Of a stretch of 23,372 nucleotides of DNA, positions 4,119 through 18,761 are shown piece after piece (the first letter of the stretch is position 1; the number at the start of each line of letters is the position of its first letter). The stretch covers positions 1 to 23,372 of the IMG/VR virus record IMGVR_UViG_3300042320_000043; one strand, written 5' to 3'. Position numbers and translations under genes: made by a program. A model generated the notes under the pieces. It worked only from the letters and a program-made list of their open reading frames with translations, was not told the DNA's origin and searched no databases. The stretch is from a virus.

Positions 4119-7100
4119 TAGACGATCTCTCTGCCGTAGCCAGTAGCAGTGTAATCGCAACTGCGGGTGACGCCTGCATTGGCACTGTTGTAGAAGTTTA
4201 CAGTGAAGCCGGTGCGGCTGGTAGAGGTGACCGTGTAGTAGTCACCAGTTGCCATGTTCGACGGGCTGATCACGATGTTCGGTGTCTGGTAAAACGCCTG
4301 CGCAAACGTGACCGTGTAGGTGTTGGCGCCAGTGCGGTTGCCAGATTCAACTCGCTGCTGCAGTTCAGCCGTTGCACCTAGGTCTGAGATCGCCAAGCCG
4401 ATTAGGTTGCTTTGGGTGATGCCAATCACCCGCACCTGGATGGCGCGTGCCCGGACCACGGCATTGACAAACTCGTTCCATGGTCCCCACGTTGGCGTGC
4501 CGGCTGGGTTGTCGTTAGTTGTGCGGACATAGGTAATGCAGTTGGTTTGGTCAAGGTCACTACCGTCGAAGTTGCCGGGTTGGTCGTCAAAAAAGCTATC
4601 CACCGTGCCAGTACCTGTGCCAGGGCCTGTTGCCGTGAAAATAAGGCCCACGGTATTGCTGTCTGCGCCAATGGCAAGAAAATCTGTTGTACCGATGGAA
4701 ACAATTTTATACCTTTTGCCTGCGACAATTCCAGTCACGGACAATGCCACCCCGACGCTATCAAAGTTGATTGATGTGCTGACCGGATAGCTAATGATCC
4801 GGCGGCGAAGGTTGATGTCATAAACCTGCGTCAGGTCCAGCGTGTCCTTGTAGACATAGGTACCAGTCAGCGCAGTCGCTGGGTTCAAATACAGCGCAAC
4901 CTTGCCAGCGTCATACACGAAGTTGGTTTTGGTGCCATCAAACTTGGGCACCAGGTTTTGCTCTTCCCAGACCTTTACGCTTAGGCGTGGCTGCGGCGTG
5001 GGCAATGCTGCATGGATGCCGACCGGCACCAGCGACCGCACGCCGGACTGATCACGGAAGGCGACGAAATAAGTGCCGGCCAGCAACGGCACCTGCTTTT
5101 GGGTTTGGTTGCCAGCCGCTGCCTGCACGATGGCATTACTGGTTGACCACTCCGCTGCTGGCATGTCACGCGGGTCATGGCGAATCAGCACTTCACCGCC
5201 AATCAGCACATCGAGGTCGGTCGCTAGATCCCACTGGATAATGGCGGTGCTTTCGTTGATGGGCACCAAGCTGACGCCTGTCGGGTTGGCAGGTGGTGCG
5301 CCAACGCCCGTCACCGAGAACATCATCTCTGCCGGTGCGCTGCTAATCACCTGCGTGGAGCTGATTGCATACACCTCCACTTGATAATTGCCGGTTGTGA
5401 CGTCCTCGATTTCGTACAGCGGGCCGTATTGGCGCACCTCGGTCCAGTTGCCAAACTCTGCCCGCCACCGAATTTTGTATTCATTGACGCCACGGACACC
5501 CTTCCATGTGAGTGCCAACTTGGTGGTAACCCGACCATTGAGCGGATACAGAATCTCGGTGCCGGTCAAGTCCTGCGGTGTTTCAGGTGGCACGTTTAGG
5601 TTGGTAATGTCGCGGGCTTCAAGTGGTGCGCCGCGCTCCACATAGTCGTATTTGCTGCTGTTGTAGCTGACGGCTGTGATCGAATAATTGATGCCCTCTT
5701 CTTCTTGGATGCCCAGCACCTTCCATTGCGTCGGTTGGATGTCGCTGGTTTCAACCATCCACACACCACCATTTTGTGGCGCCATGCTGAAAGGCGGCGT
5801 GACTGTGTACACACCAGCGGTCAAGTCTGTGATGGTGCGCGATTCAACGATGCCATCGTCTAGCACCACGCTCAGGGTGCCGGTGCTGGGCAGATCGGTT
5901 GCATTGTCAACCGTGACGGTGCTTGCGGTTCCGCTACTGATGCGGCCAGCGCGGCGAGCGCCAGACTTAACAGGGTCGGCAATGTTGATGACAGCACCGG
6001 GACGAACGATGATGCCGTTCTCCAGGCTGGTGGTAAAGCTGCATACTTCTGTCTCGTAGCGTTCGGAGTAAAGAATCCACTCGCCCACGCGATGCGCTTG
6101 TGACCGGCTGGTGGTGGCAAATGCCGTGACCTCTTTAGTCACTACGCCATAACGGGCGATGCCTTCAGGATCTTCGACTACTTCCCGATCAATGTCGCCC
6201 AGCTCTAGGTTGAGCCAGCCAACAACAACAACAGTTGAGCGGGTCTTTAGGCTGCTGGTTTCGTAGCTAAAGCCGTCTTCGCTGACATTGGCAAGACTGA
6301 ACAGCGCAACCGGATCTGATGGCCGGTCCTGCATCATGCTCAACGATCCAGCCGCCCAGTACGGCATGGCCCGGAAAATTGAACACATGTCATTGATTAA
6401 CCTATAAGCTTCTTCTTGGGTTTGGATGTTGACGTTGCAGCTAAACCGTGGCTCGCTAATTGGATCATTTAGGCCAGTCGATACCAGTTCAGCGCAATAC
6501 TTACTAGCTTGAAAAAATGCCCACTTGTCCAATGTGTTGGCTTGGATGTGATCACCCAGTCCATAGCGTTTTGATACCAAAATGTCCCAAAGAATCCAAG
6601 CGGGGTCGCTGGTCCATGCAGCAGCGCCGAATGTTCCATTCCAAATACCGGAATAGGTGAGCCTGCCGGTTTCTAGGTCAACGGTTGCATTGCTCGGAAT
6701 AGCAACCTTGATGCCACGAATTTTGTAGGCGCGTTGCGGGATGTTGCTGAACTGCTCAGCATCAATCCGTGTGGCAACGTAGGCAGTGTTTGGGTACTTC
6801 AGCTTTTTATAAATTAGCTCGGTGTAGCTAGACCACGAGAAAGTATTGGTCTCCTTAATGCTGGTCGGTTCTGCTGATGTGCGGCTAACGCGGATGTCAA
6901 CCGGAAACGTATCATTAAGTTCTATATTTCCGTTTGTGGTTAAAGAAGAGCTAGCTACATAAGAAAAAGAAGTTAGGCTAATTACTGTGGCAACAGTGTA
7001 CGTGCTGCTAGCGGCTGAACCAGATAGGATATTTGCGTAGAAAGCTGTGCCGACTGAAAGATTGTGGGGAGTAGATGTTGTTACGGTTACGGTAAAATTA

Positions 7101-8364: not shown

Positions 8365-9061
8365 GACGCAACCTCCTTCCGACACATTTTAGGGTCCAAC
8401 CTCCAAGAATATCCCTAGATGACAGCCGTCCTTGCAGATGGTGAAGCATCATCTGATCGCCTAGGTACACGGCGCAGTGGTTGAGGCCGGGACTGCTGAT
8501 GCTCATGAACAGCAGGTCACCTTTTTCTAGTTCTTCATCAGGCAGCAACTCGCGGAAACCTGTCACCTTCCAGCAATCATCAAAATACGGTTTGGCTTGA
8601 AAGTCTTCTGGGTTGGCGCAGCGCTCCCAGTCGCGTAGCTTGATGCCCTGCTCGGCATACCAGTCACGAACCAGTGTCCAGCAGTCATGCACTGCCCACA
8701 CCCACTCGCGGCCAATCAATGGCGCCTTATAGCCGCATGGCTTGCATTCGCCCCAGGCTCCTAGGTTGGGATTGACGATGTACCAAGGCAAGCCGCTGGC
8801 TTCACATGCGGCGCGGTCTGCTGGTGATGGATGCGGTGGTGTGCTTGGGTGGCTGTGAACAATAGCCAACACCTCGCCTTGATCTTCGGCTGCGGCGTAA
8901 TCCTCAGTTGACAGCACAAACATCTGATCCGGTGCTGCCGCTTGGTTGCGACATGGGATGTAGTGCTCGCGGCCTTTGATGACCACCAGCAACCCACAGG
9001 CCTCGCGGGGTTGTTCCGCTTTGGCGTGCTCTAGTGCTGCGTCGCGCCAGATCATGGTCAT
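8354..9061 (-). CDS. K: Tail tip peptidase K (JAB metallopeptidase + NlpC/P60 hydrolase)
   Basis: 235 aa, similar to lambda K. It is a two-domain protein. The N-terminal JAB/MPN domain (1-115) has the Zn motif intact: Glu20 (REACG), H69-S-H71-P and S79...D82. The C-terminal NlpC/P60 domain (about 115-235) has Cys127 in HDCWTLV, His195 in NHCAVYLGD, and His207/208 as a candidate third residue. Such proteins are thought to cleave peptidoglycan peptides during DNA entry, or to mature tail tip components. Start and stop of the neighbours interlock: ATGA with gpL upstream, 11 nt overlap with gpI downstream. Both active sites look complete, so the enzyme should be functional. Confidence 0.92.
8371..8378 (-). 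promoter_or_regulatory. Strong Shine-Dalgarno for gene I
   Basis: AAGGAGGT on the minus strand, 6-7 nt before ATG 8364. It decides the start of gene I and lies inside the 3' end of gene K. Confidence 0.8.
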
Positions 9062-10035
9062 CCGCTAAATGTACCAACGCCAGGGAAGCCACCAAATGGC
9101 AATTCAGCATTTTGCCCGAACCGCAGGTGGCAGCTATTTAGTCGCTTGCCGCATACGTCACCGCTGGCACTCAGCACCGACTGGTCTGCAGCATCAAAAT
9201 AATTGGTGCCGGTGTAGCCGCATTCAGCAGAGCGGTAGGTCCATGGGCACAAGTTGGCGATGCACTGCCGCTTGGGTGCTCGCACGCCAGCAATGTCAAA
9301 ACTAGCTGCCAGTTCAAACTCAACGAGGCTGCGATTTTCCGCACTCTTTCTATCTACATAATAAATTTCTCGCGGAAATTCGGCGCTGCCATCTTCACTG
9401 GGATTGATTGGCTCCAGCAGGAAACTACCGCCATCTTCAAGCAGCAACGCATCACCATCCTCAAGTAAAAGGATGTCACCGCTGGGTGGGTAGTTGACCG
9501 CATCAAGATATTTAGCCAGCGTGCGAATGCGCGTTACCTTTGCACCTTCCAGTCCAACCGGCAAACTGAGGATGATGGCCGTAACCGTGCCGAAGATATT
9601 GCTGACACGGATTTTTGGCCGTGGCAATGTCCCTTGGCCGCTGTATTCAAACCCATCGGCCTCAATCGGAAATCTTAGGTAGCTATTGCCACGCCAGATT
9701 ACATCACCGTTATTGACCAAGCTGGTACCCGAGTGGAAACGATAAATCTCGTTACTGCCGTGGATAGCAGTGACCAGCTCCAACTCAAACAGCTCGATAA
9801 TCGCGCTGGGGTTGGGCGACTGAAAATCACCCGACAGGATGGTAACCGCCATCCATGTAACGGTGCCATCGACAGTGGTATTACCGATGACCGTCGGCCA
9901 GAACGGTTCCGTCGCGCTAGTTGTACCAGCAACCGTGCAGCGGAAGAAGAAGCCCGTCGCTGGTGGAATCGTTGCCTGAACAACATCACCGACGTTGTAG
10001 GCGTAACTAGCTTGCCACAGTGCGGGTGCGCTCAT
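9058..10035 (-). CDS. L: Minor tail protein L with Fe-S cysteine set and extra modules
   Basis: 325 aa, against 232 in lambda. The core matches gp[55 protein letters not shown], then [16 protein letters not shown]. The C-terminal domain carries Cys258, 263, 272, 295 and 302 ([14 protein letters not shown] and [10 protein letters not shown]). The last four match the pattern that binds a [4Fe-4S] cluster in lambda gpL. Two additions explain the extra length. One is an N-terminal module of about 65 residues (YNVGDVV...[15 protein letters not shown]...DGTVTW), like small carbohydrate-binding-type modules of phage tails. The other is an acidic insert at about 183-217 with three octapeptide repeats. 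The protein forms part of the tail tip with M, K, I and J. Confidence 0.92.
9409..9477 (-). repeat. Three octapeptide (24-nt) repeats inside gene L
   Basis: Residues 187-209 read as D + ILLLEDGD + ALLLEDGG + SFLLEP. The Glu residues fall exactly 8 apart (192, 200, 208). The first two 24-nt units are similar at DNA level (both contain CTTGA[G/A]GATGG). The lambda gpL core is colinear on both sides, so this is an insertion. Confidence 0.75.
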
Positions 10036-10736: not shown

Positions 10737-13700
10737 TTACCTACCTCCCGAAAGTAAGCCACCAGGGCGCTGCTGCTTAATCAGCTCGGCTTGCACTGCG
10801 CCGGCAATCACACGGCCCAACGCAGCGCCCTGCGCAGAGTCGCCTTGCACCTGCGTGCCCTTGGCATCAACACTGACATTAACAGTGGTGGCGCCACTGC
10901 CGCCCCCCGCAACGCCAAGCTTGCCGTCTGGACCGCGCTTGAGTGGCATGATCGCTTCAGGTCCAGCTTCACCCATGACTCCTGTAGCCATGGCGCTGCC
11001 ACGAGCAAACTTAAACAGCGTTGGACTGTTGACGATGCCTCCCTTGGCATAAGGGACGATTCCGTTTTGCGCGAAGGCGTTGCCGTTGGCATTCAAGACG
11101 CCTAGAGGGTTATTGATTGAAGCGGGAGCAGACAAATCAGAGAGTCCAGCTCCCCCAGCTGCAGCGCCAGCGGTGGGATTGAAGATCCTTACAATCGTGT
11201 TCAAGATCGCCAGCTTGATCCATTCCGCAATCATCTTGGCGGCCATGTCAGCGAAATACTCGGCCACGCTGCTGAAGAAGCCAGCCAATGCTTCCTTGGC
11301 ACTCACGCTGCCGGTAATGACGCCCTTGAATGCATTGCCAAATGCATCGCCAATTGCGGTGGCGGCGCCGACGACCTGATTGCCAACATTAAGCAGCTCA
11401 TTCAATCCACCCTGGATCCTTTCAATCTCGGCGCCAATAATTGTTGAGGGAGAGTCATTGCTAGCAATACGATCCTGCTCAGCCTTGCCCTCGCCCTTAA
11501 TTCTTTCAAGTTCCTTGCGTTGCCGCTCGATCTCATCAGCAGAAGCGCCATCAGCCTGAGCCTTGACAAGCGCTGCCTCTGCGGCGCGAATTGTCTCCTC
11601 AACCACTTTCTTGGTCTCAAGATACTGTCTTGCTGTAGCTGGCAAGGTCCCCTGCGCAATCAATTCACCATATTCACGCTCAAAAGAAGCACGATCTTTG
11701 AATTCCGCCATTTGCTTGGATGCGGTTTCCATTGATTTTTTTAACTCATCATTTGCTTTCTTCTCTTGCTCGGCAAGACTAAAAACAAGCTTTGCGGATT
11801 CTTGAATTGATTGCTTTTTAAGTATTTCAAGCCTTAGCTCTTTATCCTTGGACGGAATTTTTTCTAGATCAAGTTTTGCTGCCTCGGATACCAATCGCGT
11901 TTGAGCAACAAGCGTTTGCAGGATTGCGGCCTCACGCTCATCACCAGCTAACTTCGCTTGAGAAATTAACGACTCAGCTTCAAGCAGCTGATCCATCAAG
12001 TTCAATTCAATGCGCAATTCAGCGGCGCGACTTTCTGGTCCCTTGGCGCCCTTGCCGCCCCCCTTGCCACCGCCGTCCCCTGCACCCGTGCCTCGACCAA
12101 AATTAAAAGAACGTGTTCGCGTGGATCGAAAACGGACCTGAGAGCTAGGTGCTCCATAGCGCCCAAATCCACCGGTATCCCCAAAAGTGCCGACAGGCCC
12201 GCCCTGCGCGGCGCGGCTGGAAGCGCCAGCGGCATACTGAGCTGCGCCTGCTAGCAGGCCTGCAGTATTCCCGCCCAGAATGCTGCGAATTGGCGCAGGC
12301 AAATTCTGCCACCAATTGGCAATAAGACTACTCAATCCGTTAAATGCTGCCGAAGCATTGGACTGCATGTTTGAAAAAGCGTCCGCCCAAGCGCTATCAG
12401 TATTTTCAGCGCTTACTTGGCCAGACTGAGATACAGAACCAAAAACATCATCAAACAATTGCTGAATAAACGACGCAGCTGGAGAGAGACTGTCTCCCAA
12501 GTTTTCAAAAGCCTGTCCGACATCACTCGCAGCTGCCTGACCATCTTCTTTAATTTGCTCCATGCTGCGCTTAAAGTCTCCCGCAACAACATTTCCAATG
12601 TTGTCAACCCAGTTTCTAAAGATTTCATTGGTGTCATAAACCGCTTTGCCAAGCAGCCCCAGGCCAACAACTCCCGCCGCCACCCAGCCAAATGGCGATA
12701 TGCCAAGCAATGCAGCCTTCAACCCTTGCACAGCCAGACTTGCCGTGCCAGCGATGCCACCCATTTGCGCGATGGCGGCAGAAACCTTAACAAAGGCCGC
12801 TGCAGCATTTGTTGCTATTGGAATTGCGGCTGCTATTGCGCCCAGCCCCAGCAAAGCCTTAAGCCCTCCTACGATTACTCCAGAATTATCAGCAATGGTT
12901 TTAGCGATAGCAGCAATACTTGCAGCAAAGTTGATAATATTTTGCTCATTTTCAATTAAAATATTTGAAACAATTTCCTGGAACTGTGCGCCAACTGGCT
13001 GCAGCTCACGCCCAACCGCTTCTCGCAATCGGGCAAAAGTGACCTGAATTCGATCACCAGCAGCCTGACTGCTGGCTGCAATTTCATTTGCAGAACTGCC
13101 ATAACGGGTACTCAATGCTTGCACAAATTTCATGAAGTCATTAAGTCCGACTTCACCGCCCTCCAGCAACTTATCCAATTCTTGCGGGGTCTTGCCAATG
13201 GATTGCGCAAATAGCGTGAATGCACCAGGGAGTCGCTCACCAATTTGCTGCCGCAATTCTTCGGCGCTTACCTTGCCTTTGCTAAACACCTGCGCCGTAG
13301 CCCGCAACGCAGCTTCCATGTCATTCAAGTTGCCACCCGTACCACGGATACCAGCAGCAATTCCCTCAAATGCCAATTTGGCGGCGTCAACATTGCCACC
13401 AGCGCCGATCACGCTGGCCGATAGCTGAGTGAATTGCTTATTCAACTGATCCTGAGGAATCGCCAATCGACGGCTAGTGGCATCAATAAATTGCAAGCTC
13501 TTTTCGTACTCAGCTTGGCTGCCAACCACATTGCGCAGAGCAATCCGCTGCTTGTCGATTTCAGCCGTGAAGGCCGCCATCTGGCCTAGCGATTGCCGAA
13601 TCATTCCTGCCTGCGCACCAATGGCAGCACCAGCAAAGGCGCCAGGCACGCCGCCAACTGCTGTGCCGATTGCGCCACCAATGGCGCCCTCAGGACCACC

Positions 13701-14957
13701 AAAGATGCCACCACTGATGACAGCGCCAGCCGCTTGGGTGGCTTCCATGGCGCCAAGGCGGCGGCGGCGGCCCTGCATCCGCTGCATTCGGCGGTCGATT
13801 GCAGCCATAGCCTGATCGGCTTCCCTGGCAACCTTTCCGTAGTCAACGCTTAGTGGGCTGATCGTGGTGCGAAGTTGTTGCCAAGCATCACGCTGTTGTT
13901 GCAGGCTGCGGACGCTGCCATCCGAAGAAGCCGCAACAGTGCGAATTTGTTGTGCAACTTCCCCATAGGTGCGGCCCATGAGTTGCGCAGCGTTTGCACC
14001 GGCTTGGCCGCTGATTGCTCCAATAGAGCGGAATAGTTCACTTGGCGCTTCTGGGCCAAACATTTCCCCCGTCAAGCCGCGCCCAGCAATCCCCGCTCGC
14101 TTTGCACGATTTCTTTCGATAGAACGGCTAACCGCATCCCGGGCACGCAGAGCATCATTCTCTGCATTGATCGCTCTTAGGTTTGCAATGCGATCATTGA
14201 TTTCATCTTTGCGAGCCTTGTTAGCCTCTCCCGTAACGCGATCAAGCTCCTGTTGTACTGTTTTAATTTCACTAAGGCGTTGCTTGTAATCACGAAGCGT
14301 GTAATTAGTATTTTGCAGGTCTTCTCGCAGCTCGACAAGTCGAAGACTTAGTGCAGCAGTTGTTTTTGGTAGCTCCTGCTCCGGCGTCATCGCACCAATC
14401 AATGGTGCCCCAACCGCCTGTGCGCCAGCAATTACGCCCTGGCGAGCCTGCGCCCGCCCAAAAGCCGTCTCCCTAATTGTGATTTCAGTGAGTTTGTCGC
14501 CATATGCCCGGGCGCTGACGCTTATGCCATCCAGCTCACGCCGCAATGCAGCAAGCTGAATGCGGAAGGCTTCGGGGCGACGGGCAGGAAATTGATTTGC
14601 AATTTGCCGATCAGTTTGCTCAGCAGCACGGCCAACAGCTTTGTAATCCTGTTCCAGGCTTTTAAGTGTTTTGCTGAGCCGGGTTACATCATTGGCAAGT
14701 TGTGAGTAAACATTGCCGCCAACAGTGGCCTGTGTGCGCAGCGTTTGAAGCGCCTGAATCTGACCCTTTAGTGCTTGCTCGCTATTATTTAGGCTCTTGG
14801 CGTATTCATTGATCTGCTTACGAGCAGATTCAATTTGCGTGTCAGTAAGAGTTGTTGCGCGGCCTAGCTCACGAAAACCACTCGCAATCTTTTTTAGCTC
14901 CTCACCGCCTTCAAACTTAAGTTGAACCAGCAGCTCCTCAATCCGGTTCCTAGCCAT
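10737..14957 (-). CDS. H: Tail tape measure protein
   Basis: 1406 aa, the longest gene here. It sets tail length and is ejected on infection; at about 0.15 nm per residue it predicts a tail in the range of 200 nm. The N-terminus (1-340) is long, charged and coiled-coil like. The tape measure core domain spans about 455-650 (EIDKQRIALRNVVGSQAEY, RRLAIPQDQL, GKVSAEELRQQIGERLPGAF). Strongly hydrophobic segments follow at about 680-775 (GLKALLGLGAIAAAIPIA, FGWVAAGVVGLGLLG), then a second coiled-coil region near 990-1185. The C-terminus has lambda-type motifs, VSAKEALAGFFSSVAEYFADMA and PEAIMPLKRGPDGKLGV. AAGGAG lies about 8 nt before the ATG. It overlaps the chaperone stop by 8 nt. Confidence 0.95.
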   Translation of the reverse strand: MARNRIEELLVQLKFEGGEELKKIASGFRELGRATTLTDTQIESARKQINEYAKSLNNSEQALKGQIQALQTLRTQATVGGNVYSQLANDVTRLSKTLKSLEQDYKAVGRAAEQTDRQIANQFPARRPEAFRIQLAALRRELDGISVSARAYGDKLTEITIRETAFGRAQARQGVIAGAQAVGAPLIGAMTPEQELPKTTAALSLRLVELREDLQNTNYTLRDYKQRLSEIKTVQQELDRVTGEANKARKDEINDRIANLRAINAENDALRARDAVSRSIERNRAKRAGIAGRGLTGEMFGPEAPSELFRSIGAISGQAGANAAQLMGRTYGEVAQQIRTVAASSDGSVRSLQQQRDAWQQLRTTISPLSVDYGKVAREADQAMAAIDRRMQRMQGRRRRLGAMEATQAAGAVISGGIFGGPEGAIGGAIGTAVGGVPGAFAGAAIGAQAGMIRQSLGQMAAFTAEIDKQRIALRNVVGSQAEYEKSLQFIDATSRRLAIPQDQLNKQFTQLSASVIGAGGNVDAAKLAFEGIAAGIRGTGGNLNDMEAALRATAQVFSKGKVSAEELRQQIGERLPGAFTLFAQSIGKTPQELDKLLEGGEVGLNDFMKFVQALSTRYGSSANEIAASSQAAGDRIQVTFARLREAVGRELQPVGAQFQEIVSNILIENEQNIINFAASIAAIAKTIADNSGVIVGGLKALLGLGAIAAAIPIATNAAAAFVKVSAAIAQMGGIAGTASLAVQGLKAALLGISPFGWVAAGVVGLGLLGKAVYDTNEIFRNWVDNIGNVVAGDFKRSMEQIKEDGQAAASDVGQAFENLGDSLSPAASFIQQLFDDVFGSVSQSGQVSAENTDSAWADAFSNMQSNASAAFNGLSSLIANWWQNLPAPIRSILGGNTAGLLAGAAQYAAGASSRAAQGGPVGTFGDTGGFGRYGAPSSQVRFRSTRTRSFNFGRGTGAGDGGGKGGGKGAKGPESRAAELRIELNLMDQLLEAESLISQAKLAGDEREAAILQTLVAQTRLVSEAAKLDLEKIPSKDKELRLEILKKQSIQESAKLVFSLAEQEKKANDELKKSMETASKQMAEFKDRASFEREYGELIAQGTLPATARQYLETKKVVEETIRAAEAALVKAQADGASADEIERQRKELERIKGEGKAEQDRIASNDSPSTIIGAEIERIQGGLNELLNVGNQVVGAATAIGDAFGNAFKGVITGSVSAKEALAGFFSSVAEYFADMAAKMIAEWIKLAILNTIVRIFNPTAGAAAGGAGLSDLSAPASINNPLGVLNANGNAFAQNGIVPYAKGGIVNSPTLFKFARGSAMATGVMGEAGPEAIMPLKRGPDGKLGVAGGGSGATTVNVSVDAKGTQVQGDSAQGAALGRVIAGAVQAELIKQQRPGGLLSGGR

Positions 14958-15303
14958 TGGCTTTCTCCTTGTGAAGCTCGGCTAGGGCTGCGGTCTCCAT
15001 GATCTGCAGGTCTTCCAACATGCCACGCCGGTCCTTGACATCATAAAGCTCAAACATCCCCCCGGCACCCAGAAGCACTTCATATTTCATCCCGGTGTAG
15101 CCCGCCATGCTCACCTGCCACTGCGTACCCATACGCAGGAACATCATCACTGTTTCCCAGTTGTCATCCCAAACCAAAAAGCCCTCAGGCCTTGAGGGCT
15201 TGTTCTCAACGGGCAGGATCAAGCCAAATGCCTTGGCGTCATCATCCGTCTTGTCATCTACCGGCTGCGCACCCCCTGCCCAGTGGATCGCAGCGTCTCT
15301 TAG
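14950..15303 (-). CDS. Tail assembly chaperone T-like extension (DUF1799), expressed by -1 frameshift
   Basis: This is the second half of a gpG-gpT-type fusion. The frame is -1 relative to the upstream G-like gene and is open from the slippery site to the stop at 14950, giving 117 residues after the shift and a fusion of about 225 aa. Residues include LRDAAIHWAGG, then FLVWDDNWETVMMFLRMGTQWQV, a pattern matching DUF1799 proteins found just before tape measure genes. A TTG at 15222 could start a 90-aa form but would remove the conserved HWAGG part and has no ribosome binding site, so frameshifting is the better model. In lambda, G and GT coat the tape measure and recruit tube subunits; the same role is inferred here. 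It overlaps the tape measure start by 8 nt. Confidence 0.82.
   Translation of the reverse strand, partial: LRDAAIHWAGGAQPVDDKTDDDAKAFGLILPVENKPSRPEGFLVWDDNWETVMMFLRMGTQWQVSMAGYTGMKYEVLLGAGGMFELYDVKDRRGMLEDLQIMETAALAELHKEKANG
15179..15201 (-). terminator. Terminator-like hairpin inside the T-like frame
   Basis: On the minus strand AAGCCCTCA, loop AGGCC, TGAGGGCTT form a perfect 9-bp stem, and TTT continues after it, so five T's lie at 15176-15180. It codes for NKPSRPEGFLV in the T-like frame. It could be an attenuator shielded by translating ribosomes, or a coincidence of coding sequence. Confidence 0.4.
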
Positions 15304-15309
15304 TTTCCC
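15264..15309 (-). promoter_or_regulatory. Programmed -1 ribosomal frameshift site
   Basis: The heptamer G GGA AAC (15303-15309) is in frame at the last two sense codons of the G-like gene and is followed directly by TAA. After an 8-nt spacer (15295-15302) comes a hairpin with stem GCTGCG / CGCAGC (15289-15294 and 15264-15269) and a 19-nt loop. Slipping back one base gives GGG AAA CTA and enters the T-like frame. Lambda uses GGGAAAG at the same place between G and T. Confidence 0.85.
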
Positions 15310-15626
15310 TCCCGTGCCGCGTTGAAGGTCTCGGTGTAAGCCTTCAGTACACCACGGATCCAGTAGGGATCATCAGCGAATTCTTTGACGGCTGCCTGGG
15401 AGAACGGAATGGGCTTGCCATCCTCATCATCCATGCCGTCCCAGTTGACAAGCACTGCCTGTAACATCTGCACGTCGCCTTTCTCGCTCAACTTGGCGAA
15501 CTCAGTACGCCCCAGCCGCTTGAACGTGGCATCAAAGGTGCTGGAGTCAAAGGTGCCGCCATCAGACGGCTCTTCCACCGTGACGGGCCACTTGAAGGTT
15601 TTAACCTTCTTTCGGATAAAAGTCAT
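15300..15626 (-). CDS. Tail assembly chaperone, G-like
   Basis: 108 aa. It lies between the tail tube genes and the tape measure, the position of lambda G (140 aa). It is small and acidic in its second half: MTFIRKKVKTFKWPVTVEEPSDG, FKRLGRTEFAKL, NWDGMDDEDGKPIPFS and DDPYWIRGVLKAYTETFNAAREGN. The DGxPxxFS and final helix fit phage tail assembly chaperone families. The last codons GGA AAC before TAA form the frameshift heptamer, so most ribosomes should make this short form and a minority the longer G-T fusion. No clear Shine-Dalgarno precedes ATG 15626. The upstream 84-nt gap holds a T8 tract and hairpin. Confidence 0.85.
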   Translation of the reverse strand: MTFIRKKVKTFKWPVTVEEPSDGGTFDSSTFDATFKRLGRTEFAKLSEKGDVQMLQAVLVNWDGMDDEDGKPIPFSQAAVKEFADDPYWIRGVLKAYTETFNAAREGN

Positions 15627-15710: not shown

Positions 15711-16976
15711 CTAGGCAAAAACCAGCTTGAATTCGTCGTTGCCGTTGGTCGATGGCGTTGCCACATACGGGATGGAAAGGCCTTGGATGCTCTCTGCGTC
15801 TTCATAGTCAGGATCCACCAAGTCAATTCGGCTGGACAGCAGCGCCACCAGATTTCCAGCAGTCTTTCCATGGATGAAGGACAAATCACCTGCAGCGGGG
15901 TCGGTTGGATCTAGGTAAATACGCTCAGAATCTTCGTAAAGCAAATCGAAAGAATCCTCGGTCAATAAGGCGTCAACAGGGTCCATCTCGCCGCCCAGCG
16001 CTGCAGCGAAAAAATCCTTCCCACTGACCCCAGCCAAGACTGGCGCCTCTATTTCAACGCTGCCATTCACGTCACGACCCGTGATGAATACCTCCTCATG
16101 GCAATTGAGCAGATCACGAAAAATCAGTTCGTTGCCCAATTCCATGACGACTGATCGAAGACAGCCACGGAATCCAAGCAGGGCAAAAGCACCTGTGTTG
16201 CCAGCCTTGAAAATACTTGGCGGCCCCTGATTGGCATATGTCACCGCCGGCAACGCAGTATCCGTTGGAGGGTTGTAAATGCCGTTGAAAACAAACTCAA
16301 TGGCCGGTATCGAGCCCAAGTCCGCAACTACGGCACAGGTGCCCCTGCATCCGGTAATACGATGAAGCGTTCCATCAACATTGTAATAAATAGTTGTTGA
16401 CTGTGGATTGTCGCTAATAGGTTCGTAGATAGTGGAAACATCAATGCTGTAAACACTTGTACTGTCGTAAGTTGTATTGTTGTTCAAGGGTCGAATTGAT
16501 GCAACCTTACTGGCGCCGACATAATCAATAATCAGCCCAAGTGTTCCTTGCCCCAATCCGCCAGTCACTCGAATAATTCGGCCAACGTAAACACGCTCAA
16601 CCGAGCTAGCACTGGCATCAAGCGTGATTGCATTGACTCCACCCCCAGCCGCAGTGCCTGCAACCGGGCCGCTTGTCACTGTTTCGCTCAGCGAACAGGC
16701 CTTCAGCAGTGAGCTGAATTGTGGTGTCACTCCGACTACGCCGCTGCCTGTCAGCTCAACACTCATTGATACTTCGACACGAGTATTGGCCAGCAACTGC
16801 TCCGAAGCGCCGTAATACGGACGCACGGTCTCACGATCAACTACTTCGCTTTGCAGCGGAATAATTTCCAAGTCAAAAACGTGTATGGCATCAAAAGCTC
16901 CACTAGGAGCTGAATCAATGCCATACACGCCCTCAATTTTGGAAAGGATCAGTCGCTTCTTGGTAAGTTGCACCAT
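15711..16976 (-). CDS. Tail tube protein, second paralogue with octapeptide insert
   Basis: 421 aa. It aligns end to end with the 387-aa tube protein upstream: in the first 100 aligned residues I count about 60 identities, and the ends IPYVATPSTNGNDEFKLVFA / LPYTAIPSTAGNDEFRLVFA match. Shared motifs include VRPYYGASEQLLANTRVE, GCRGT, IFKAGNTGAF and LSFIHG. The family is the phage tail tube type (Phage_tube_2-like). The extra length is mainly an insert at about 330-362, which holds three octapeptide repeats. Codon use looks less biased and more AT-rich than in the first copy, so expression may be lower. It could be a decorated tube subunit, a minor subunit at one end of the tube, or a divergent copy under different selection. 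The gap to the first copy is only 24 nt. Confidence 0.88.
   Translation of the reverse strand: MVQLTKKRLILSKIEGVYGIDSAPSGAFDAIHVFDLEIIPLQSEVVDRETVRPYYGASEQLLANTRVEVSMSVELTGSGVVGVTPQFSSLLKACSLSETVTSGPVAGTAAGGGVNAITLDASASSVERVYVGRIIRVTGGLGQGTLGLIIDYVGASKVASIRPLNNNTTYDSTSVYSIDVSTIYEPISDNPQSTTIYYNVDGTLHRITGCRGTCAVVADLGSIPAIEFVFNGIYNPPTDTALPAVTYANQGPPSIFKAGNTGAFALLGFRGCLRSVVMELGNELIFRDLLNCHEEVFITGRDVNGSVEIEAPVLAGVSGKDFFAAALGGEMDPVDALLTEDSFDLLYEDSERIYLDPTDPAAGDLSFIHGKTAGNLVALLSSRIDLVDPDYEDAESIQGLSIPYVATPSTNGNDEFKLVFA
15906..15974 (-). repeat. Three octapeptide repeats in the second tail tube protein
   Basis: Residues 335-357 read as D + ALLTEDSF + DLLYEDSE + RIYLDP. Acidic residues fall 8 apart at 340, 348 and 356, and the block ends in LDP, as the gpL block ends in LEP. 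The 387-aa paralogue lacks the block and goes directly from AALTDGTLGE to LSFIHG. Confidence 0.75.
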
Positions 16977-17000: not shown

Positions 17001-18164
17001 CTAGGCGAAGACGAGCCTAAACTCGTCATTACCAGCCGTGCTCGGGATTGCCGTGTAAGGCAGCGACAGCATGTGAATGCCATCTTGATCCTGATAGCTG
17101 GGGTCACCGATGTCCACGCGGGTGGACTGCAACGCCACGATGTTGCCACCAGTGGTGCCATGGATGAATGAAAGCTCACCCAGGGTGCCGTCAGTCAACG
17201 CAGCAGTGAAATAGTCCTTCTGCGCGATGGTCGGTGCCTCGATCACAACCGTGCCAGTGGTGGCGCGATCAGTGATCAGCACTTCCTTGGTGCAGCCCAC
17301 CAGCTCCCGATACACCGTGCTGTTGCCCAGGTCCATCGAAACAGACTGGAGGCAGCCGCTGTAATCCAGCAGGGTGAAGGCACCGCTGTTACCAGCCTTG
17401 AAGATCCGAGGCGTTGCCTGATCGGCGTAGGTGACGCTCGGCGCAGCAGTGTCGGTCGGAGCGTTGTAAACCCCGGTCATCGTGAAGTCGATGGTCGGGA
17501 TTTCGCCAACAGCAGTGTTGATCGAGAACGTGCCACGGCAACCAGTGAGCTTGTGCAGCACACCGTCAATGTTGTAGTGAAGCGTCACCGAACCAAACGT
17601 GGAACTCACCGGGGTGTAAACCACGTGAGCGTCAATGCTGTAAACGCTGGTGTTATTCAGGGTCACCGCAGCGCCAATGGAACGCAGCGTGGCGACCTTG
17701 GTCGAGCCAACGTAATCGGTGATCAAGAACACCGAGCCAACGCCAAGACCAGAAGTGATGCGAATCACTTGGCCGTTGTAAAAGTCGTTGTTGGAGCTAG
17801 CGCCAGCAGCCAAGGTGATGCTGTTGGAGCCACCAGCAGTGGCAGTGCCGGTCACAGCAGGCGAAACAGTCGTCTCAGCCAAAGCACATGCCTTGAGCAC
17901 CTTGCCAAAGCGTGGCGCGGTGCCAGCAGTGCCACTGCCAGCCAGTTCCACGCTGAAGGTGCATTCAACGCGAGTGTTGGCGAGCAGTTGCTCGGATGCA
18001 CCCAGATAGGGTCGCACCAGATCGCGGTTGACCACATCACTCTGCTGAGGAGTGATGTTCAGATCCCGCACCAAAATGGCATCAGCGCCATCGGGCGAAG
18101 GGTCAACCCCGTAGCTGGACTCCGTCTCCGCCAGAATCAGGCGTTTGCGTGTCAGAAGTGGCAT
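17001..18164 (-). CDS. Major tail tube protein, first paralogue
   Basis: 387 aa, in the position of lambda V (246 aa). It polymerises around the tape measure into the tail tube. The N-terminus RKRLILAETESSYGVDPSP, then VRDLNITPQQSDVVNRDLVRPYLGASEQL, is typical of the longer tail tube family (Phage_tube_2-like). The middle holds the GVGSVFLITDYVGSTKVATL region and YNIDGVLHKLTGCRGT; the end is AIPSTAGNDEFRLVFA. AGAGG lies about 9 nt before ATG 18164, inside the preceding gene, which overlaps this one by 62 nt. Codon choice is strongly biased toward C/G-ending codons like the capsid gene, which fits an abundant structural protein. I take this copy to be the main tube subunit. Confidence 0.92.
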   Translation of the reverse strand: MPLLTRKRLILAETESSYGVDPSPDGADAILVRDLNITPQQSDVVNRDLVRPYLGASEQLLANTRVECTFSVELAGSGTAGTAPRFGKVLKACALAETTVSPAVTGTATAGGSNSITLAAGASSNNDFYNGQVIRITSGLGVGSVFLITDYVGSTKVATLRSIGAAVTLNNTSVYSIDAHVVYTPVSSTFGSVTLHYNIDGVLHKLTGCRGTFSINTAVGEIPTIDFTMTGVYNAPTDTAAPSVTYADQATPRIFKAGNSGAFTLLDYSGCLQSVSMDLGNSTVYRELVGCTKEVLITDRATTGTVVIEAPTIAQKDYFTAALTDGTLGELSFIHGTTGGNIVALQSTRVDIGDPSYQDQDGIHMLSLPYTAIPSTAGNDEFRLVFA

Positions 18165-18339
18165 CGGAAATTACCTCTTGGATTTCAGGTTCCCCCGCCA
18201 TTCCTGGTGGGAGTGTGCGTTGCACCAAGGTGCGAACGCCGGTCTCGGAGTCAAGGATGTACGAGCCACCTTGCCCTTGGTACGCATCTACAACAATAGG
18301 TTGAGGTGCTTGGTACTCCTTGCGTTGACGTGATGTCAT
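18103..18339 (-). CDS. Small protein between tail terminator and tail tube (78 aa)
   Basis: The ATG overlaps the tail terminator stop by ATGA (18336-18339), and the 3' end runs 62 nt into the tube gene in another frame. The product is polar and Gln/Pro/Asp-rich: RQRKEYQAPQPIVVDAYQGQGGSYILD, then RTLVQRTLPPG and a disordered C-terminus. No family is recognised. The coupled start and the low-complexity, soluble composition support a real gene, while the long overlap leaves the C-terminal end less certain. Position suggests a tail assembly role. Confidence 0.7.
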   Translation of the reverse strand: MTSRQRKEYQAPQPIVVDAYQGQGGSYILDSETGVRTLVQRTLPPGMAGEPEIQEVISDATSDTQTPDSGGDGVQLRG

Positions 18340-18761
18340 GCTGTGAGATCCGCGACTTGCGTGCGATAAAGCACGTCGTACTCACAAGAGATTACTCCGG
18401 CAGGCTGATCAGCCTCAACCATATTGAAAGTCGTCAAAGCTGGCTGGATGTCAATTGCCAGTCCGCCCAATGTCAGATCAGCCATTAACTTGCTGTGCAT
18501 ATCCACAATTGTTGGGTCAGCAAGTTGATCAGGCACGTTGCCACGCACGATCACCACCACACGAACGCGCATGGTCGCATCTAGCTTTGGCAGGCTGGTG
18601 TTCTGTTCATACGTGATCGTCGCAGGCTCAATCACAATCGCAGGCGTTTCAGCCCTCGCCATTGCTTCAACACGACTACGCCAGATCCGTGTACCAGCGC
18701 CTGCTGTTCCTTGCAATGCGGTGTAAATCGCTGCGAGGATTTGCTCTCGTTTACTTGCCAT
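18336..18761 (-). CDS. Tail terminator / completion protein, gpU-like
   Basis: 141 aa, near the length of lambda U (131 aa), and placed just before the tube genes. The sequence KREQILAAIYTALQGTAG...RIWRSRVEAMARAETPAIVIEP, then RVRVVVIVRGNVPDQLADPTIVDMHSKLMAD, is characteristic of the phage tail terminator families. In lambda, U forms a hexameric ring that stops tube growth and joins the tail to the head. It overlaps the preceding 49-aa gene by 11 nt and the next gene by ATGA. The assignment to U itself is by position and pattern. Confidence 0.78.
   Translation of the reverse strand: MASKREQILAAIYTALQGTAGAGTRIWRSRVEAMARAETPAIVIEPATITYEQNTSLPKLDATMRVRVVVIVRGNVPDQLADPTIVDMHSKLMADLTLGGLAIDIQPALTTFNMVEADQPAGVISCEYDVLYRTQVADLTA

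Follow-up and report, generated by a model that had tools for sequence, protein, structure and literature searches.

The window (the whole stretch of DNA analysed, 23,372 bases) is the entire virus record, and it contains two tail tube genes on the minus strand. The first (17001..18164) encodes 387 aa and matched Pfam Phage_tube_2 (PF18906) with 67.2 bits; the second (15711..16976) encodes 421 aa, matched the same family with 29.4 bits (cut-off 27) and was assigned to phrog_290. The two proteins were 53% identical and colinear end to end in BLASTP. The gene order tail terminator, tube, tail assembly chaperone, tape measure was found in the window, with the terminator at 18336-18761 (phrog_4204), the chaperone at 15300-15626 (TAC_4) and a tape-measure-like ORF of 1406 aa at 10737-14957. 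A DUF1799 gene (14950-15222) was recognised by Pfam/PHROGs profile match. A tail tip protein of 325 aa resembling lambda gpL is encoded at 9058..10035, also on the minus strand (Pfam Phage_tail_L, E = 7.5e-59; sequence match to lambda tail tip L, 8iyk_L, E = 2e-26).

The AlphaFold model of the 421-aa protein (mean pLDDT 82, pTM 0.82) was matched by Foldseek to the tubes of T5 (9iny, E = 3e-10), SH-Ab15497 (8xan, E = 7e-11) and DT57C, and by this structural match it has the duplicated tube fold. The two halves of the tube, compared by sequence only, gave no significant similarity, and the internal duplication therefore rests on the structural match. Double tube proteins of the T5 type form trimeric rings of the duplicated domain (PMC8718954; PMC5717097). 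Alignments of 11 and 106 tubes delimited an insert of ~76 aa following the first-subdomain helix in the 421-aa copy (16437..16667, minus strand; pLDDT about 90), where it begins after helix 88-93 of the first half, and at the equivalent site in the 387-aa copy (17622..17852, minus strand). This insert was present in both window tubes and part of the family, and in none of the named-phage relatives; its pattern is GTAxxGGxNxITLxAxASS...YxGxxIRxTxGLGxG...DYVGxxKVAxxR. Locus L200 likewise has two tandem tube genes, the second of which (L200:1923-3173) carries an extension of ~30 aa, EADSLLLDDSPFNDFYILGYGEASSSG, in a different, near-C-terminal loop. The L200 pair offers a parallel that hints at second tube copies as a place for decoration.

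A single large gap separates the two window tubes, the other indels being of 1 aa and 3 aa. Opposite this gap the 421-aa protein has 30 residues, GGEMDPVDALLTEDSFDLLYEDSERIYLDP (residues 328-357; 15906..15995, minus strand), within which the repeat module LLTEDSFD-LLYEDSER-IYLDP occupies residues 337-357 (15906..15968, minus strand). An earlier note on this DNA had described a triple octapeptide at 15906-15974 and had used the 387-aa paralogue as an internal control for insertion. The coordinates were correct (residues 335-357 of the minus-strand ORF 15711-16976), and the colinear alignment with its gap opposite GGEMDPVDALLTEDSFDLLYEDSERIYLDP bore out the use of the paralogue. Two of the three octapeptides stood as full units, while the third proved to be a half unit (IYLDP).

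The note had also named, beforehand, a family alignment as the test of insertion against loss. In 104 distinct homologues, drawn from IMG/VR and from named phages and aligned with the two window copies, the only carriers were orthologues of the 421-aa protein (L005, L006, L007, L011 and L012), the sequence of L008 being cut at the insert site. Because 99 other tube homologues lacked the insert, nine from named phages among them (Synechococcus S-CBS1, S-LBS1 and S-CBS3, Rhodobacter, Vibrio and others), the insert was, to judge from the alignment, gained in the second tube copy rather than lost from the first. The opposite reading, an ancestral insert deleted from the 387-aa paralogue, was ruled out by the same alignment; nothing was found in its favour, and its probability is practically negligible.

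The two full units of the tube insert were identical at 13/24 nt. They differ in synonymous codons, which rules out recent DNA slippage as their origin. Comparison with two orthologues gave pS values of 0.19 and 0.38 in the insert, versus pN values of 0.013 and 0.061, from small counts, so that pN/pS is about 0.07-0.16. An HMM built with the tube and gpL copies left out was searched against the 305 ORFs of the window and recovered the tube copy (E = 8e-9) and a copy in the gpL-like protein (E = 4e-13), the next-best, unrelated ORF scoring E = 0.74. By these profile scores, the repeat match of the tube insert is beyond chance.

We named this element the LED repeat and defined it as two units LLxED[G/S]xx followed by a half unit [I/L]xLE, with a period of 8; its general form is LLxEDGxxLLxEDGxx[I/L]xLE. 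The tube and gpL copies both have the two units and the half unit by the leave-out HMM, and both also lie in a loop or at the end of a virion protein, at a site that is empty in relatives. A degenerate DNA pattern for LLxED[G/S]xxLLxED[G/S] was present in at least 119 IMG/VR stretches; the loci studied were picked by pattern or homology, and their number is no independent estimate. The control pattern with E and D swapped was found in 2 stretches and that with period 7 in 1, out of frame. The period 9 pattern occurred in 34 stretches, about 22 of them with the motif in frame and most of these C-terminal, and the pattern with TCN serine codons in only six, all belonging by contig to this tube lineage. 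The best match of the LED HMM to reversed sequences had E = 0.69. In 257 Gb of bacterial genomes the pattern was found in 51 stretches, many of which are out of frame or belong to LytTR-like proteins. A minority appear to be true copies; in Limnoglobus the copy adjoins phage head genes.

Codons at the Leu positions were somewhat more alike between the two units than in shuffled pairs, those for Glu and Asp hardly so, and the variable position 3 of the unit was matched between units in 23/53 cases versus 10 in shuffles. A DNA-level element is disfavoured, since the peptide is conserved despite variable Leu and Glu codons. Judged on its codons, the repeat is maintained at the peptide level and did not arise by recent duplication of DNA; for the tube copy, recent slippage is excluded because its two units differ in codons. 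Two similar motifs were seen elsewhere. Calothrix ORFs at L169:4170-5717 and L180:4731-7259 contain longer, looser arrays of an LxREDGxxL type, and in a family of ORFs of ~710 aa (L070, L144, L156, L162 and L192), found in Mucilaginibacter and other Bacteroidota genomes and in one viral contig, SYLLNEDGSWLLNEDGSxFIIA lies about 210 residues from the C-terminal end.

The gpL module comprises 21 residues (189-209; 9409..9471, minus strand), and none is expected by pattern match in shuffled sequence. Its position, site A, was empty in L343, L330 and L342. L049 and L117 also had an empty site A but carried the module at a second position, site B. The gpL copies of other loci came even nearer to the tube's ALLTEDSFDLLYEDSERIYLDPTDP, namely TLLTEDAFSLLYEDDTEIYLEPVNP in L323 and VLLLEDGFDLLYEDSSRIFLEPTN in L138. 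Across 15 gpL orthologues pN/pS was 0.20 in the module and 0.075 in the remainder of the protein. Only 33/63 nt were identical between this phage's gpL module and its tube module, and recent gene conversion between them is thus unsupported. The overall AlphaFold model of gpL was poor (pLDDT 62), the module itself having pLDDT 68-77; within that poor model it showed isolated bridge residues at 188/190, 196/198 and 204/206, spaced by the 8-residue period. In the gpL of marine virus AG-345-A17 (L349:2850-4100), site A holds an insert of >100 aa, HPLRIK...YYCSTHGNSMGN, that is unrelated to the repeat and resembles a cupredoxin-like metal-binding domain.

Among 68 non-redundant carriers, several of which are short ORFs or lie at contig ends, the module was within 25 residues of the C-terminus in 33 and within 8 residues of the start in 6, and internal in the remainder. 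Families could be assigned as gpL (8), J (4-5), tail terminator (3) and head closure Hc3 (3), with single carriers among Hc2, T4-like neck, P22-type stabilisation protein, Mu gp48, baseplate wedge and others. Many carriers had no family assignment; four had LamG-like Pfam matches and two glycosyl-hydrolase matches. By these profile assignments, most carriers to which a function could be given are parts of the virion. Two loops of J were filled in L307, L323 and L326 and empty in the window's J. A loop of Hc3 carried the module in L074 and lacked it in phage DSL-LC05 at 66% identity. In both L307 and L326, the module was present in gpL in addition to the two loops of J. The module recurs at several independent sites. 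The window's J contains two further insert-like stretches, TGIVAGKRYKIVSIGTTDFLAIGADSNTVGLIFTATGPGTGTGTV and FTVTVTTSTPHNLSVGTAFYANILSGSAASSTYTVATVISLTSFSYVASSS, at 4601-4747 and 6929-7096, each also seen in a small number of ORFs from related loci.

Searches for a known family gave little. The module profile had no match in the PDB, Pfam held no family for the module, and the window copies matched nothing in PHROGs better than E = 0.3; the consensus query found weak PHROGs matches to unnamed families (best E = 0.03). Searching with the module alone by tblastn against cultured phages returned no convincing match, a result in which the low-complexity filter may hide some. No paper on the module was found in the open-licence literature, and it may have been described elsewhere. 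Like the calcium-binding RTX nonapeptides (GGxGxDxLx), the repeat is short and acidic, occurs in tandem, contains glycine and keeps its hydrophobic residues at set positions, but its period is 8 rather than 9, it has no GGxG and it comprises two or three units rather than many. RTX profiles in Pfam had no match at E up to 10, and an RTX beta-roll was ruled out on the profile search, the period and the missing GGxG.

The closest likeness in habit is to the Ig-like domains of phage structural proteins (Fraser et al. 2006, as cited in PMC8718954). Those of T5 pb6, the C-terminal part of lambda gpV and JBD30 gp44 face outward and are promiscuous across tube and other virion proteins, as is likely for the LED repeat. 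They are domains of ~90 residues that fold independently and have solved structures, whereas the LED repeat has 20-30 residues of 8-residue repeats and no Pfam match; an Ig-like decoration domain (~80-100 residues) was accordingly rejected for the insert, which has 30 residues and matches no Pfam family. SPP1 has two major tail proteins, gp17.1 and gp17.1*, one of them decorated (Auzat et al. 2008, as cited in PMC8718954). This phage, like SPP1, has a plain and a decorated tube protein. The decorated form of SPP1 is made from one gene by frameshifting, while in the present phage the two forms are encoded by tandem genes and a short repeat provides the decoration. A survey of phage domain shuffling (Smug et al. 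2023, PMC10684548) likewise described one fragment common to otherwise unrelated phage proteins; its aligned fragments were of at least 50 aa, so a module of 20-30 residues lies below its detection limit.

The tube insert itself was modelled with pLDDT of about 35-38 and starts directly after helix 322-328. In JBD30 gp44 a peripheral helix (77-83) is followed by a decoration domain (88-175) that protrudes from the disc (PMC11445458), and the insert similarly comes after a peripheral helix. By this analogy we infer that, in the second tube subdomain, the insert sits where a decoration domain would be. Outward projection is likely because the insert follows that subdomain's peripheral helix, the position of the JBD30 decoration domain, and the insert is thus likely to be displayed outside the tail. 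The earlier note had placed it on the outside of the tube, and this part of its proposal gained indirect backing from the helix in the AlphaFold model and the JBD30 analogy. The simplest reading of the module would be a strand-turn-strand with a DG turn.

We consider it probable, if far from assured, that the insert is a copy of a short, recurrent, selectively maintained module that has been placed repeatedly in the surface loops and termini of virion proteins. Against this explanation stand the low confidence of the tube-insert model, the absence of the module from solved structures and the existence of some LytTR-like proteins with a similar stretch; moreover, ~20 residues are too short to prove common descent, and the copies may have converged on a favourable sequence for a hairpin. 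The recurrence in many unrelated structural proteins of uncultured phages suggests an unnamed miniature surface module passed between virion parts. The broader proposal is that the LED repeat is a widespread and hitherto undescribed mobile mini-module of tailed phages, of ~20 residues, which moved between neck, tube and tip proteins, at their ends or in surface loops, and gave each virion many weak binding or docking surfaces; we regard it as about as likely as not.

An alternative is that the module, instead of contacting the host, is recognised by another virion protein or a chaperone and marks neck, tube and tip proteins for the attachment of an accessory part. The pile-up at C-termini (33/68 carriers) is what would be expected of a docking peptide, the carriers span the whole axis from neck to tip, and some phages, such as L307 and L326, have several. 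The internal loop copies of identical form fit such a tag less well, however, module-free relatives retain the same carrier genes, and a common partner gene was not found, so that we hold this explanation to be unlikely while still giving it some weight.

A further reading, close to that of the earlier note, takes the acidic insert to be private to this tube, which it would decorate as a small beta-solenoid; it draws on the fixed 8-residue period and on the bridge residues in the gpL model. The repeat is not private, though, being found in gpL and in the IMG/VR stretches counted above; the period-9 variants show that the turn tolerates one extra residue, and hairpin turns fit equally well. Three short rungs are also few for a stable solenoid. 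The private solenoid is in our estimation decidedly improbable. No more can be said for a neutral, functionless loop extension that arose by chance in a low-complexity acidic loop and was tolerated as filler. The insert was modelled as disordered, and site A of gpL also accepts the unrelated insert of AG-345-A17; yet the amino acids are conserved while silent sites diverge, the insert matches a module that recurs in unrelated proteins, and position 3 is matched between units more often than in shuffles, which together make filler very unlikely.

If the insert is, as we prefer, a copy of a recurrent surface module, the 421-aa protein would join the tube beside the 387-aa one, presumably by co-assembly, and would display the module outward, so that part of the tail would be studded with it, and gpL would expose its own copy at the tip. 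That several parts of the virion carry one and the same short surface points to weak, multivalent attachment, either to the host or to a partner shared within the virion. The repeated weak contacts would most likely be made with the host surface, or else with another virion protein.

Phage Ig-like domains are promiscuous and their role is still debated. If the present reading is true, a module of 20 residues would show that decoration reaches far below domain size. The module is small enough to be made as a synthetic peptide and tested for binding, and tube paralogues with and without it in one phage provide a natural internal control.
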